A DNA stretch of 64,000 nt from positions 4,650,001 to 4,714,000 of the forward strand of contig OZ005704.1 of assembly GCA_963930775.1 (NCBI GenBank), read 5' to 3'. Below, piece after piece: positions 6,494-61,576 of the stretch; position 1 is the stretch's first letter; each line of letters opens with the position of its first letter. A program made the translations under genes and the position numbers. The stretch comes from Cliona cf. orientalis (taxonomy: Eukaryota > Porifera > Demospongiae > Clionaida > Clionaidae). The notes beneath the pieces are model-generated. The model was not told the DNA's origin. It was given only the letters and a program-made list of their open reading frames with translations, and made no database searches.

Positions 6494-6656
6494 ACCGTGT
6501 TTATGCTAATAGTAAAAATATAATTACGATTTTAAATTCCGCGCGATTTTCTGGTAAAGGTTGTCACGCGCTCCATTAAGATACACTATGAAGAATCCAA
6601 GAACGCTAATTTTCTTGCGCTAATAAGATCATGCGTTTTATTAGCATAAACATGGT
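6494..6656. mobile_element. MITE family B (ACCGTGTTTATGC termini)
   Basis: Inverted ends ACCGTGTTTATGCTAAT (6494) and TTAGCATAAACATGGT (ending 6656), about 163 bp, no coding capacity. The interior holds GGTAAAGGTTGTCA at 6553-6566. Related copies are at 14264-14432 and 29464-29612. Confidence 0.7.
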
Positions 6657-7358
6657 GTAGCTGACTGCGTGCAATTACACTGAAAGTGAATCATAATCTA
6701 TCCCATTGCTGAATTTAGCTTTGCATAGACGGTTTATTATTGATTGTAAAACTGTGGAAAGCAAAGCTAGATTCAGTTCCAGTCCTTGCCATGATATTTT
6801 TGTATACACAACATAGACCACTTTCCCAAGAATACCAAGTATACAGATTATTATGACGTGTTTATTAATTTTTCTGAACATTGTGCATGGGCAAAAATAA
6901 TATAAAATTAATCATATACTGAAACTGAGTCAACTGTAGCCACAAACTTCTTACTGGTATACATGACAACATTATAGTATGCAAAAGAGCCTGTGATATA
7001 AAAATATGATACCGTAATACTTTAAGCACACAGTGGAGGGCTTGCTTTAATTCGCTTGCCCCAGGGCTCATGTATCTTCCATCATACCTGGATACATGCC
7101 ATAGAGTGCTGTGTTAGACTAAGTCATTTAGTACTAGAAAGATATAATATTATAGTGGCTATAATATTGTGGGATAGGGGTATATAGGTAAATTATGCTG
7201 GCATAATTTTGAGCATAATAGGTGTGTGTAGGCATTTGAGAATTAGGCAAGCATTATAGGCATCAACTGGCATAATTTAAGAATTTTAGGGCACACAATT
7301 GCAACTAGCTGTTAATTGACCTTTATCACAGCACCTGGACTACATATTATGCCATCAG

Positions 7359-7937
7359 GGTTCTATCCATAGGGGGGGGCAGGGGGGAAGCTTCCCCCCC
7401 AGAGCACCCAGCTTCTCCCCCAAAGAAGAGTAGCAAGATAAAAAAAGTGAGAGGGAGAGAGAGGGAGGAGGTGGGGAACGTATACTATTTGAGATATATG
7501 TAAATAGCATCCTTCTGAATTATGTCAAAGAGTATACATGTTATACCTAAAACCCACAAATACCAATTACAATGTAGATCATAGCTGCAACATGTACAAA
7601 TACTGCAATTTGATTGGCTACTGACAGGTATCTATATCTCATAGTCACCTACAAGTTTTGCCCTCTGGCTCTAGCAATACAAAGCTATATATTATGATCT
7701 AAACTTGTTAGACACTGTTTAGTCGGTTTTTATATGATTTAGAAGACCTCAGGGCTCTCATAGAAGCCTCGCTTCGCTCGGGATTCTATATTATGGAGTC
7801 CTTCAGTGTTCTAAATGACACAGAAACCTCCTAACCAGTGTCTAACTAATATTTAATGGTTTGGAGGAGGGGACTGTGCGTGAAAGTGCCACGCCCCCTT
7901 CCACCCCAAACCAAAATTTCTAGATAGAACCCTGTAT
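7359..7937. mobile_element. Inverted-repeat element nested in the 7168-8215 element
   Basis: Ends CAGGGTTCTATCCATAG (7359) and inverted TCTAGATAGAACCCTG (to 7936). Inner C-rich tracts near both ends (GGCAGGGGGGAAGC; CCACGCCCCCTTCCACCCC). It contains the family C MITE at 7707-7846. The terminal match is short, so its boundaries are approximate. Confidence 0.35.
7707..7846. mobile_element. MITE family C, copy with long inverted termini
   Basis: Termini GTTAGACACTGTTTAGTCGG and inverted CCTAACCAGTGTCTAAC, about 140 bp. The interior has GCCTCGCTTCGCTCGGGATTC, almost identical to the 58.3-kb copy. No coding capacity. Confidence 0.75.
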
Positions 7938-8400
7938 GGACTCGTAAAGGGTTGATTAATCAGCTGGTACCCACTTTCGAATCCAAACACATGTAAAATT
8001 GAAATGGTAGCTGCACTCTATGATAGTGTAACTGAGTTTCCTTATGTCTCATATCGGTTTTTGTTAACATTATTGGTTCAACTCGAGCATAATGGATAAT
8101 GTATTGGAAATTATAGGTGCACTTCTTGAGCATTATTAGAGTTTTTTTGAGCACTTTTGAGAATAGCATTATAGGCCAAAAAATTAGCATAATTTACCTA
8201 CCCCTATTGTGGGAAACCAGGAAACTATAGCTCTGATAGTGAGCTACTCAACTGATAGTAGCCATTTGTACGTATCCAGAGTTTAGTTACTTATAATGGA
8301 AGTGGAACCATGGTGGAACGTTCCTACAGATGTTTAGGCCACTCCAATATGATTCACTGTTTACCCTTTCATCAGGCACGCGGTTCATTAGAGCACCTTT

Positions 8401-8411
8401 TGCGCATGCGC
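8401..8411. promoter_or_regulatory. NRF1-like palindrome (family D hairpin remnant) upstream of 8477
   Basis: TGCGCATGCGC followed by GCGGGGTAAC, 66 bp 5' of the ATG at 8477. The wider string is the terminal hairpin of the family D element (compare 19655-19680 and 55390-55415), so a transposon end appears to lie in this promoter. Function is inferred. Confidence 0.4.
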
Positions 8412-8476
8412 GCGGGGTAACAACTATCGTCAGGCCTCATTATTTTTTTCACAACCAAAGACTTTTCGATCGAATA

Positions 8477-59800: not shown

Positions 59801-60087
59801 AGATACACCCCAAAATTTCCATATTAAATCTCACTATTCATTTAAACTGTTTAATAATATATCGTCTGAAGGATGTGGTTTGCGAGATCAATCTATATCC
59901 AGGCTGGGATATTAAAGATCATCACAGTTTATTAAATAGTCGGGGCCTTACTTGTATAAATCCGTGGAGTTAGTCCAGAGCTGCCTCCCTGCTGAGCCTG
60001 GCCATTTACAGACGCGAAGCCACTTCGAGCGCTGATCCTACGATGATTGACTGACTGAGGAAATTTATTGTACGTCTGAGCTGCCAT
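53893..60087 (-). CDS. SSUH2: SSUH2 homologue
   Basis: Nine exons, all phase-consistent: 60087-59952, 57469-57311, 57180-57105, 57029-56900, 56826-56766, 56686-56499, 55618-55476, 54624-54324, 54039-53893; 446 aa. Signatures of the SSUH2 family appear in order: IPTITEEIAR, CCYG, YELETFTEGR, GQTIDGPE, WDITVRPS, then YEVPHTASVKTC. DnaJ-like CxxCxGxG units follow (CINCNGEG, CWRCLGRG, CVNCNGNG, CLSCNCTG, CYTCGGSG, CEVCDTNG), and the end is VYGYENRVFNPDYPQQCCWG. Family members are reported in odontogenesis and sulphur- or metal-binding contexts in vertebrates; molecular activity is unclear, so none is asserted. The intron after the second exon uses a GC donor (GGAG|GCAAGT). The introns contain an (AG)n microsatellite, family D, E and C elements and a 560-bp inverted-repeat element. 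Confidence 0.9.
54092..54207. repeat. (AG)n microsatellite
   Basis: About 115 bp of uninterrupted GA repeats in the last SSUH2 intron. Open frames through it (Leu-Ser repeats) are artefacts. Confidence 0.95.
54739..54962. mobile_element. Family F (TACCGTA-type) MITE, 224 bp
   Basis: Ends TACCGTATTTCTTCTAAAAA (+TTCGGC) and inverted GCCGAATTTTTAGAAGAAAT (+ACGGTA). It contains GGCAAAGGTCGTCA (54821-54834). SSUH2 intron. Confidence 0.8.
54993..55415 (-). mobile_element. Family D element, well-preserved inverted copy
   Basis: Begins ACTAGAGCTCTGTAGAGCAC and ends in the hairpin TTACCCCTTGCGCATGCGCG then CGGGGTAAC. It contains the inverse motif CGACGACCCTTTCC and a (GACAAC)n-like expansion around 55330-55370. 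It aligns end to end with the inverse of 19655-20060. Confidence 0.75.
55754..56295 (+). mobile_element. Family E element, longest copy (542 bp) with inverted ends
   Basis: Ends TCTCCCCAGTAGCTGC and inverted ATTGCTACTGGGGAGA; the interior includes GGTAAAAGGTTGTCAA (about 55788) and repeated CATCATA/CCTCATA words. Located in the SSUH2 intron between 55618 and 56499. Confidence 0.65.
58272..58406. mobile_element. MITE family C, best-preserved copy
   Basis: 135 bp with about 40-bp inverted termini: GTTAGACACTGTTTAGTCGG + TTTCTACGTGATTTAGAAGA, and the inverse at the right end. The loop has CCCTCGCTTCGCTCGGGATT. SSUH2 intron. Confidence 0.8.
59253..59820. mobile_element. Inverted-repeat element (TATTCACTGGACTGGACT termini)
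   Basis: Left arm includes GTATCTATTCACTGGACTGG + ACTATTGGACTCACCTTTGA; the right arm is its near-perfect inverse at about 59765-59815. About 560 bp, in the long SSUH2 intron. A 106-aa + strand ORF (59346-59666) lies inside with no motif I recognise. Confidence 0.65.
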
Positions 60088-60257
60088 AATAAGGTCAATA
60101 AAAAGCCAAAAAGAGTCCGATATTACCTAGCGTGTTGATTCGGGTATACCCGGTATTAATTACCCATGCGCGCATGCGCAGCAAGGAAGTAAGGCTCTCA
60201 GACTCCGTTAGAAATAATAAAACATAGGCCTATGTACTCCTGGTATTACATACGTAG
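60088..60257. promoter_or_regulatory. Probable SSUH2 promoter with NRF1-like palindrome
   Basis: GCGCATGCGCA at 60170-60180 lies 83 bp 5' of the minus-strand ATG (60087). The surrounding TTACCCATGCGCGCATGCGC and AGCAAGGAAGTAA look like a degraded family D hairpin. Promoter role inferred from position. Confidence 0.4.
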
Positions 60258-61419
60258 TACGGTGGCCCACAAGTGCATTCGTTTTGGTCCTCAACTCAAT
60301 CCTGATTCTGATTCTCCTACTTAATTTTGATTTTGATTCTGATTCTCTGACTTGATTTTGATTTTAACTCTGATTCTCTGATTTGATTTTGATTCTCTGA
60401 CTTGATTCTGATTCTCCAACTTGATTTTGATTTTTGATTCTGATTCTCTGACTTGATTCTTATTTAGATTCTTACTTCGATTTTGTAAGTGGATTCTGAT
60501 TCTCTGACGTGATTCTCATTGGGCTTTTAAAGAGACCTGCATGGGAATATTTTAATCCCCCCAAGATTAAAATGATTGCCACAAGAGGCCTATAGAATCA
60601 ATTAACTATTGCCAATGGAACAGGACCCTCAAGAAACTCATTAAGAGCCCCCTCTGCATGAATGTAATTATCAATCCTCAATGGGAGGTGTATGGCTATT
60701 ATATACAATTAATAATAGTTATGGAAAGCCCATTTGAGCAAACTTTCAATATTGCACATGCAATTAACAGTGAAAACATGGGATGGCCTGGACCACACAC
60801 AATCATTATATTTCTAAGCAAGCACATTACATTAAGCCCTACTAACCATGGCCAGCAAAAAAAAATTATCATCATATACCACACAAGACCACAGATTAGT
60901 CACAAGGCAAGCTTTGAGGCAGTGATATAATTAATTTTGTGTACATGCGGCAAATCATAAACTACCCATCAAAAGAACAGGACTGGCTTAAAGTAGCTAG
61001 CTGCTATGCTATTGTGGTGGTAATCTCAGTGTCCCAAAGGAGTTGGTCCCATGCATCATCTTGTTAAGAATGGAGGTAACCAAATCCTTAACAATGACCG
61101 AGTTCTTTTCTCCTCTATCTTCAGTAGAAAACCAATGGGTGTAGCTATCTGTTCACACTCACTATAATAATATCATGCATTCTGATTAGAGAATTAAGAA
61201 TCAAATCAGAGAATCAGAATTATGCATGGTAGAAAATAAGAATCGAGTAGCTAAGAGAAACAGAATCTAAAATCAAGTCGGAGAATCAGAATCAAAATAA
61301 AAAGTCATAATCAAGTTGGAGAATCAGAATCAAATCAGAAAATCAGAATCAAAATCAAAATCAAGTCAGAATCAAGGTTGAGTTGAGGACCAAAACGAGT
61401 GCACTTCTGGGCCAGTGTA
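60258..61419. mobile_element. Inverted-repeat element whose arms contain a GATTCTGATT minisatellite
   Basis: Left end TACGGTGGCCCACAAGTGCA + TTCGTTTTGGTCCTCAACTCA, then about 220 bp of GATTCTGATTCTCTGACTTGA-like repeats. The right side (about 61190-61400) is the inverted minisatellite and end GAGGACCAAAACGAGTGCAC + TTCTGGGCC. A related terminus recurs at 63470-63500 (CAAAACGAATGCGCTTGTGG). About 600 bp between the arms has a 90-aa ORF without motif. Confidence 0.6.
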
Positions 61420-61460
61420 ATACACTGTAGATCCCTTGTCCTCGGTGCTCAACTATTTCG

Positions 61461-61576
61461 TTTATACCCCGTCTAACGGTAGCTTTGGCAGAGGTCGTCA
61501 ATGTTGCTGGTGCTCCAAATTTTCGTGGCGCAATATTTTCGTGAATTTCGTGATTTGACTTCTGATCACGAAAATA
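61461..61576. mobile_element. Family F-related fragment with GGTCGTCA and AATTTTCGTG words
   Basis: GGCAGAGGTCGTCA (61487-61500) followed by GCTCCAAATTTTCGTGG and ATTTTCGTGAATTTCGTGA. The inverse of the same words occurs at 63340-63384 ending in ATACGGTA. Confidence 0.45.

Follow-up and report, generated by a model that had tools for sequence, protein, structure and literature searches.

The 14-bp word GGWAAWGGTCGTCA is a putative binding site of a sequence-specific host protein of the sponge Cliona cf. orientalis. Among the readings put forward in the original prediction a host-factor site is the best, and a probability of about 0.6 is given to it. The candidate site is proposed because the word is in large excess genome-wide, is sharply bounded at 14 bp within unrelated repeats, is found near the ATG of some genes and forms pairs with a minimum spacing.

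The motif is confirmed as real, and it is far stronger than could be seen in the 64,000-nucleotide stretch of contig OZ005704.1 (hereafter the window) in which it was first noticed. Exact copies of the W-form, GGWAAWGGTCGTCA, number 8,649 across the 216.8 Mb of the genome, and those of the reversed pattern 26. The genome-wide mismatch search that had been proposed gives 13,151 places within one mismatch versus 290 for the reversed pattern. When the word is extended to a 15-mer by one more A, 2,736 copies are found versus 2 in the control. At the level of three mismatches there is no excess in 200 kb of random stretches (51 motif matches, 28–71 for seven control patterns), and thus the nine 3-mismatch places in the window carry weight only if they are backed by the repeat around them. 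An apparent strand bias along contig C1 was an artefact of one listing; a second listing has both strands mixed. In a text search of the literature for substrings of the motif, the matches listed looked unrelated.

In the window there are 21 matches with up to three mismatches (3 exact, 6 with one, 3 with two and 9 with three), which bears out the sharing that was claimed: shuffles of the window gave a mean of 3.48 and a maximum of 9, and 0 of 100 reached 21. The positions first reported were right to within 1–2 bases, the corrected ones being 55083 (−) instead of 55082, 55790 instead of 55788 and 45658 for about 45660, and the copy at 17348 does lie outside a recognised element. Several copies had been missed. 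Two of these, at 4358 (−) and 39993 (−), have the T-variant GGTAATGGTCGTCA, and those at 14544, 29554 and 31831 are weaker matches. The T-variant copy at 4358 has the same direction as the open reading frame at 2446–4311 (−), which is 621 codons in length, and is flanked by CATGCGCA and GCATGCGCA, one on each side.

Table 1. Positions and contexts of motif copies in the window.
Feature	Position	Strand	Context
Motif GGTAATGGTCGTCA, exact to W-form	4358..4371	−	55 nt upstream of first ATG (4302), ORF 2446–4311
1-mismatch motif	6553..6566	+	family F1 TIR element, TACCGTGTTTATGCTAATAG ends
Exact motif	14360..14373	−	second F1 element
2-mismatch motif	14544..14557	+	family F3 copy
Exact motif	16440..16453	+	family F2
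1-mismatch motif	17348..17361	+	outside any recognised element
3-mismatch motif	19947..19960	+	family F9, outer parts common with F2
Exact motif	24477..24490	+	family F2
3-mismatch motif	29554..29567	−	F1 copy, located through its flanks
GGAAATGGTCATCA, 3 mismatches	31831..31844	−	context unclassified
Motif GGTAATGGTCGTCA, exact to W-form	39993..40006	−	family F4, GC-box adjoining
2-mismatch motif	41206..41219	+	family F9
3-mismatch motif	43794..43807	+	family F7
1-mismatch motif	45658..45671	+	TIR element 45572–45762, TACCGTAGATCGG ends
3-mismatch motif	53450..53463	−	context unclassified
1-mismatch motif	54821..54834	+	family F6 TIR element, about 54739–54962, TACCGTATTTCTTC ends
3-mismatch motif	55083..55096	−	family F9
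3-mismatch motif	55790..55803	+	family F7
2-mismatch motif	61487..61500	+	element type not resolved

The comparison of copies inside and outside repeats was made on contig C1, where the listing covers the first 1.69 Mb; each of its 76 exact copies was read. Most lie within repeated sequence. After masking of the motif, 57 of the 76 sites fall into nine clusters that do not join one another and 19 are singletons. Of these clusters L060/L061 is a local duplication, which leaves eight clusters that do not join, not nine. In the flanks of 23 representatives chosen from the 76 sites (24 were used for word counts), every 12-mer is common to at most two of them, two of the representatives (L045 and L054) sharing a segment with another. 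The unjoined clusters and the lack of any 12-mer in more than two of the 23 flanks are the reasons why one longer ancestor fails as an explanation. The original prediction of a short common motif in otherwise unrelated repeats, as opposed to descent of whole elements, is therefore upheld.

The accompanying statement that the termini are unrelated is true only in part. TACCG-type ends recur in F1 (6553, 14360), F6 (54821) and the element at 45572–45762, and the F3 family consensus (14544) has TACGGTA at one of its ends. Two sub-families formerly treated as one family D, F2 (16440/24477) and F9 (19947/41206/55083), have both outer parts in common and different middles, thus exchange of modules seems to take place in this genome. 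On the other side, TTAGGCC-type ends also occur.

Pairing of the motif is the best new evidence. Exact copies in the same direction form 126 pairs versus about 5.3 expected and inverted copies form 25 versus 2.7 expected, the expectation being one for independent sites, which clustering and tandem repeats would raise. From 94 of the 126 same-direction pairs, those with letters shown, 33 pairs with distinct spacers were drawn; the highest pairwise ratio is 0.71 and some may be distant relatives. None of these 33 has a spacing of 16–22 bp (P = 2e-4 if spacing is uniform), and thus none is closer than 23 bp. This looks like a protein footprint. In addition, 22 of the 33 are spaced at 28–37 bp (P = 5e-5) and 21 of the 25 inverted gaps are 13–24 (P = 4e-6), both ranges having been picked post hoc.

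The surroundings of the motif were also analyzed. GC-boxes within 100 bp of the 24 representatives number 7 in 4.8 kb versus 24 in 200 kb of random sequence; for TATA-like words the counts are 3 in 4.8 kb versus 169 in 200 kb, which is no enrichment. Small-RNA genes beside the motif, looked for in 20 sources, gave no Rfam match at the gathering score. Of 90 mismatches in one young family, 25 are inside the motif, which makes up 14 of 38 positions (P = 0.08), and this is near neutral decay. Conservation compared in 19 copies found by their flanks, three of them register-shifted, gives counts of 50/265 for the motif and 306/1806 for the flank; with those three corrected by hand the motif count is 27/266.

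Some host genes have the site near their ATG. The forward motif is situated 13–24 nt before the ATG in four homology-backed genes (spacings of 5–35 nt had been specified). These are prefoldin 2 (L055, E = 2.6e-5), a methyltransferase (L107, Pfam search, E = 2.4e-19), a histidine phosphatase (L099, E = 2.2e-4, just under the Pfam cut-off, and only E = 0.018 against PDB) and a LOG-like protein (L105, E = 3.3e-4 by PDB sequence search, with no Pfam match). The last three belong to a forward set (3/20) of sites outside evident repeats, picked by eye from 100 listed of 237, from which prefoldin 2 was excluded. Two comparison sets, also picked by eye (one of 20 from 81, another of 20 from 100 listed of 173), contain one homology-backed gene each: a proline racemase-like gene (L140) among 20 inverted sites and a mannosyltransferase (L123; PDB sequence search, no Pfam match) among 20 sites whose ATG precedes the motif. 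Pfam searches with other forward frames (L098, L102, L106, L092, L103) and with eight frames of the inverted set gave no match, and L136 gave none in PDB. The kinase-like start of L056 had no match in searches. L101, suspected of resembling METTL18, had none either and was not counted. UQ_con genes (50 matches) were discarded as a promoter set, few of them beginning at the N-terminus.

A general link with the ATG is not robust. Frames of at least 50 codons follow the forward motif plus ATGGC at 7 of 20 sites versus 63 of 546 in the background (P = 0.007), and P is 0.04 at 40 codons; at 60 codons the count is 3/20 (P = 0.30). Long frames number 3/20 in the inverted set and 3/20 where the motif is behind the ATG. 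The replicate with ATGTC, 20 sites picked by eye from 100 listed of 179, failed, with 0/20 long frames versus 54/520 in the background.

These results bear on a second reading, that the motif is a core promoter or 5′-leader element, fixed in direction towards the gene, which host genes were the first to use and mobile elements then copied. This is a tentative alternative that is rather unlikely on balance. The four forward genes and the ORF at 2446–4311 in the window are as it would predict, as are the preponderance of long frames in the forward over the inverted set and a TATA-like box, CGTATAAGCCCCC, downstream of the motif in the F3 consensus. However the ATGTC replicate, two homology-backed genes to which the motif stands in the opposite direction and the lack of TATA-like enrichment near the site are contrary to it.

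The host-protein site would be used as follows. The protein, possibly a multi-finger C2H2 type, would occupy roughly 20 bp or more, and adjacent molecules would help each other at about 28–37 bp. Several repeat families may keep the site for promoter activity or accessible chromatin, and the repeats perhaps carry it as promoter modules. Miniature elements may have inherited it from the promoter of a parent element or gained it independently, and it would also serve in the promoter or 5′ leader of some host genes. The 14-mer would be a ready bait for finding such a protein and, the host being a sponge, would offer a way in to the regulatory proteins of an early animal lineage. A bolder form of the proposal, which is improbable as matters stand, is that, in a CTCF-less lineage, the word marks the sites of an architectural or promoter-organising protein, and that competing families acquired the 14-bp word convergently together with a spacing rule of about 28–37 bp. 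If this is true, several unrelated repeats would be writing the regulatory architecture of the animal through one 14-bp word.

It had also been suggested that the motif is a subterminal transposase-binding site, which related transposases would bind near the element end. The shared TACCG-type ends fit with this, together with the location of the motif 55–107 bp from the nearer end found in TIR elements of F1, F3, F5 and F6 and in the element at 45572–45762, and two single loci (L003, L053) have an opposite copy about 170–210 bp away. In the family consensuses, however, the motif is confined to one side, as a single site or as two copies in the same direction, with no mirrored copy, and in F3 its direction with respect to the nearer end is reversed. 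Its carriers extend beyond the TACCG-type TIRs to a family with TTAGGCC-type ends, clusters without detected TIRs and gene-proximal sites. The suggestion is thus not sustained, and a transposase site is considered doubtful.

Slightly less probable still is passage of a promoter cassette between families by recombination or nested insertion, without functional selection on the site. The common outer parts and different middles of F2 and F9 are what such exchange would produce. However, since no flank 12-mer is found in more than two of the 23 representatives, any cassette would need to be almost exactly 14 bp, and neither distinct spacers within the pairs nor a lower limit on their spacing would be expected from it.

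The nuclear-receptor half-site consensus is AGGTCA, and the suggested likeness to a response element of this type is weak and the reading very improbable: the A-variant includes AAAGGTC, but the 8,649-copy word by inspection has WGGTCG, not GGTCA, and the T-variant GGTAATGG disrupts the AAAGGTC extension.

The putative host-protein site has parallels in other animals. Caenorhabditis Helitrons are described as containing heat shock elements (PMC6927752), and there also a DNA transposon has distributed a host factor's site, putative in the present case, across a genome. Unlike the eight unjoined repeat clusters and the hypothetical factor here, that system has one transposon type and a known factor. 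In placozoans, as reported in PMC12221973, a loop-anchor motif sits in Mutator TIRs and loops were measured. Compared by description, both cases are of a short motif on DNA transposons and at host promoters, candidate ones here, in non-bilaterian animals, but the placozoan motif is in the TIR of one superfamily, whereas the motif here is internal and known from sequence. On enrichment in transposable elements, the motifs described for C. elegans (PMC8896005) are also comparable, i.e. more than 20-fold enriched and many of them factor-bound, with factors that are known there and hypothetical here. The Amphimedon core-promoter motifs given in PMC4773876 include GC-box, Nrf-1, G-box and TATA types and four without known likeness; the named types resemble, by type name, words beside some copies of the present motif. 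That a single transposon can disseminate the sites of one factor is already known. Here one exact word recurs in many unrelated repeats within a single genome, together with a rule of pair spacing, and this combination points to strong shared selection.

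The window (C16:4650001–4714000, in a genome of 216.8 Mb and 149 contigs) contains 21 matches to the motif GGTAAAGGTCGTCA at up to 3 mismatches, where 3.48 are expected. Genome-wide, 13,151 places are within one mismatch of GGTAAAGGTCGTCA and the pattern read backwards gives 290; with one more A added to the motif there are 2,736 exact copies vs 2 for the backwards control. Because T-variants are present in the window, the form GGWAAWGGTCGTCA was adopted, which has 8,649 exact copies genome-wide vs 26 for the control. The background was sampled in 20 random 10-kb stretches, using the reversed pattern and six shuffled patterns. 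At up to one mismatch GGWAAWGGTCGTCA is found 13 times, the reversed pattern once and each shuffled pattern not at all; at two mismatches the count is 22 vs 2–7 for the control patterns, and at three these stretches show no excess (51 vs 28–71). The original prediction of a common motif holds up.

The 76 exact GGWAAWGGTCGTCA sites listed on contig C1 up to 1.69 Mb were compared by blastn with the site masked. Nine clusters (17, 11, 9, 6, 5, 3, 2, 2 and 2 members) take up 57 of the sites and 19 are singletons. One two-member cluster (loci L060 and L061) is due to local duplication, and the singletons L007 and L086, and by eye L047, resemble members of the largest family. More recurrent contexts are visible among the listed sites that have ATGGC or ATGTC beside the motif. 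Among 23 representatives no 12-mer is common to more than two and a few 10-mers are common to three, and the bases adjoining the site display only a tendency to T before and A or C after. The clusters stay apart, their flanks differ and no 12-mer is widely common; therefore descent from a single longer ancestor does not account for the copies, as the original prediction had also held. The best supported reading of the motif is a putative binding site for a host protein, borne by several unrelated repeats. The repeats may use it as a promoter module.

Families F1 and F6 and the element at 45572–45762 have a terminal word in common, and one end of F3 is TACGGTA. Because of these alike termini the four may form one superfamily. 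The terminal inverted repeats (TIRs) of F5 are of the TTAGGCC type. The outer parts of F2 and F9 are common to both (one side, for example, is GGGGTATGTGCTCTA.AGAGCTCTAGTT) and the middles differ, as if modules had been swapped. The nearer end found is 55–107 bp from the site in these TIR families. The original prediction allowed for a transposase-binding site; this is disfavoured because the motif is one-sided in the family consensuses and because copies also lie close to genes and in repeats where TIRs were not detected. A nuclear-receptor site, likewise considered there, is very unlikely, as the counted word GGWAAWGGTCGTCA is wrong at the core letter.

F4 is found partly as tandem units of about 370–390 bp (L063 and L064, C1:1027097–1032423); at L063 and L064 each unit has the motif and most have a GC-box. 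Near C1:2676848–2678458, among the matches listed, motif sites are again 390–420 bp apart. F5 has two motif copies in the same direction, ~31 bp apart. Opposite copies are found at L053 (172 bp) and at L003 (about 210 bp away), where F2 segments at 1501 (+) and 1710 (-) face each other about 200 bp apart, each with a CATGCGCA word and the motif, the second motif having one mismatch. Positions 61637–62000 of the window form an inverted repeat of 156 nt, whose arms are 92% complementary and separated by 52 nt.

Exact same-direction pairs with 2–32 bases between them number 126 vs about 5.3 expected for independent sites, and inverted pairs, in the one geometry examined and irrespective of kinship among pairs, number 25 vs 2.7, both expectations being underestimates because sites cluster in repeat-rich places. 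Inverted gaps are 13–24 in 21 of the 25 pairs (a range picked post hoc, kinship again disregarded). Most of the same-direction pairs listed come from two families. Distinct intervening sequence, judged by reading with each evident family counted once, is present in 33 of the 94 same-direction pairs with letters. These 33 pairs have spacings of 23 to 45, with no case of 16–22 (P 2e-4, uniform law); 22 are 28–37 (P 5e-5, a range picked post hoc) and a three-bin test gives P 0.002. A protein footprint would give such a minimum spacing at unrelated places; a mere transposon remnant is not known to yield it. At C4:10066334–10066424 (locus G000) two overlapping pairs make up a row of three exact copies, all in the same direction and with spacers that differ.

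A 38-mer of the F5 family is found at 102 places with up to 3 mismatches. Among the 100 matches listed, 64 have any mismatch, and 25 of the 90 mismatches are inside the motif, which occupies 14 of the 38 positions (P 0.08); nine of the 25 are C-to-T or G-to-A at CpG. This pattern is near neutral decay, which would fit a site that counts during spread of the element and not afterwards. A comparison of 19 copies located through their flanks favoured neither conservation nor decay of the motif.

Promoter-type words were counted within 100 bp around 24 representatives (4.8 kb), in outer flanks and in 200 kb of random sequence. There are 7 GC-boxes near the site and 24 in random sequence, with none in the outer flanks; CATGCGC-type words number 3 near the site and 52 in random sequence, and CACGTG 3 and 35. 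TATA-like words show no enrichment, with 3 near the site, 5 in outer flanks and 169 in random sequence.

Host genes were searched for with a forward motif 5–35 nt before ATGGC (see the table). At L123 two motif copies, inverted relative to the gene, are at or within the 5′ coding end; the mannosyltransferase is presumably ALG12. A unique copy of the motif at L041 is seemingly within a kinase-gene intron, as read by eye only. In the window, 2446–4311 (-), 4615–6369 (-) and 49093–53193 (+) are long intronless frames without a Pfam match; the first two are similar by eye, and they are reminiscent of sponge-type gene families. The gene types would fit a sponge as host.

Motif-associated features and their positions
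Feature	Position in window	Strand	Details
Prefoldin subunit 2			Forward motif 24 nt before ATG
Histidine phosphatase			Forward motif 13 nt before ATG; Pfam just below cut-off, PDB only E 0.018
Methyltransferase			Forward motif 18 nt before ATG
LOG-like gene			Forward motif 22 nt before ATG
L123 (ATG-before-motif set)			Mannosyltransferase match, E 4.6e-12
L140 (inverted set)			Resembles proline racemase/hydroxyproline dehydratase
Window motif	4358–4371	-	55 nt before first ATG of 621-codon ORF 2446–4311 (-), same direction
F1			Termini TACCGTGTTTATGC
F6			Termini TACCGTATTTCTTC
Window element	45572–45762		Termini TACCGTAGATCGG
F2 copies	16440, 24477
F9 copies	19947, 41206, 55083

Frames of at least 50 codons were sought where ATGGC follows the motif, at 20 sites with the motif forward and 20 with it inverted. 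These are present in 7/20 forward (P 0.007) and 3/20 inverted sites (P 0.42) vs 63/546 background sequences, and in 3/20 of the ATG-before-motif set; for the forward set P is 0.04 at 40 codons and 0.30 at 60. An ATGTC replicate with forward sites, in ~190-base stretches, gave no long frame in 20 vs 54/520 in the background. The motif is followed by ATGGC at 237 forward and 173 inverted sites, with 81 reading into the motif, and repeats dominate those listed; for ATGTC the counts are 179 forward and 96 inverted. Some host genes thus have the motif close by and may use it, and no general association with start codons is established.

In the sponge Amphimedon, four promoter motifs are described that resemble no known one (PMC4773876). 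There are parallels to a repeat-borne motif of this type in other systems: Helitrons carry heat shock elements (PMC6927752), transposable elements of C. elegans bear sites for factors (PMC8896005), and a placozoan Mutator TIR motif sits at loop anchors (PMC12221973).
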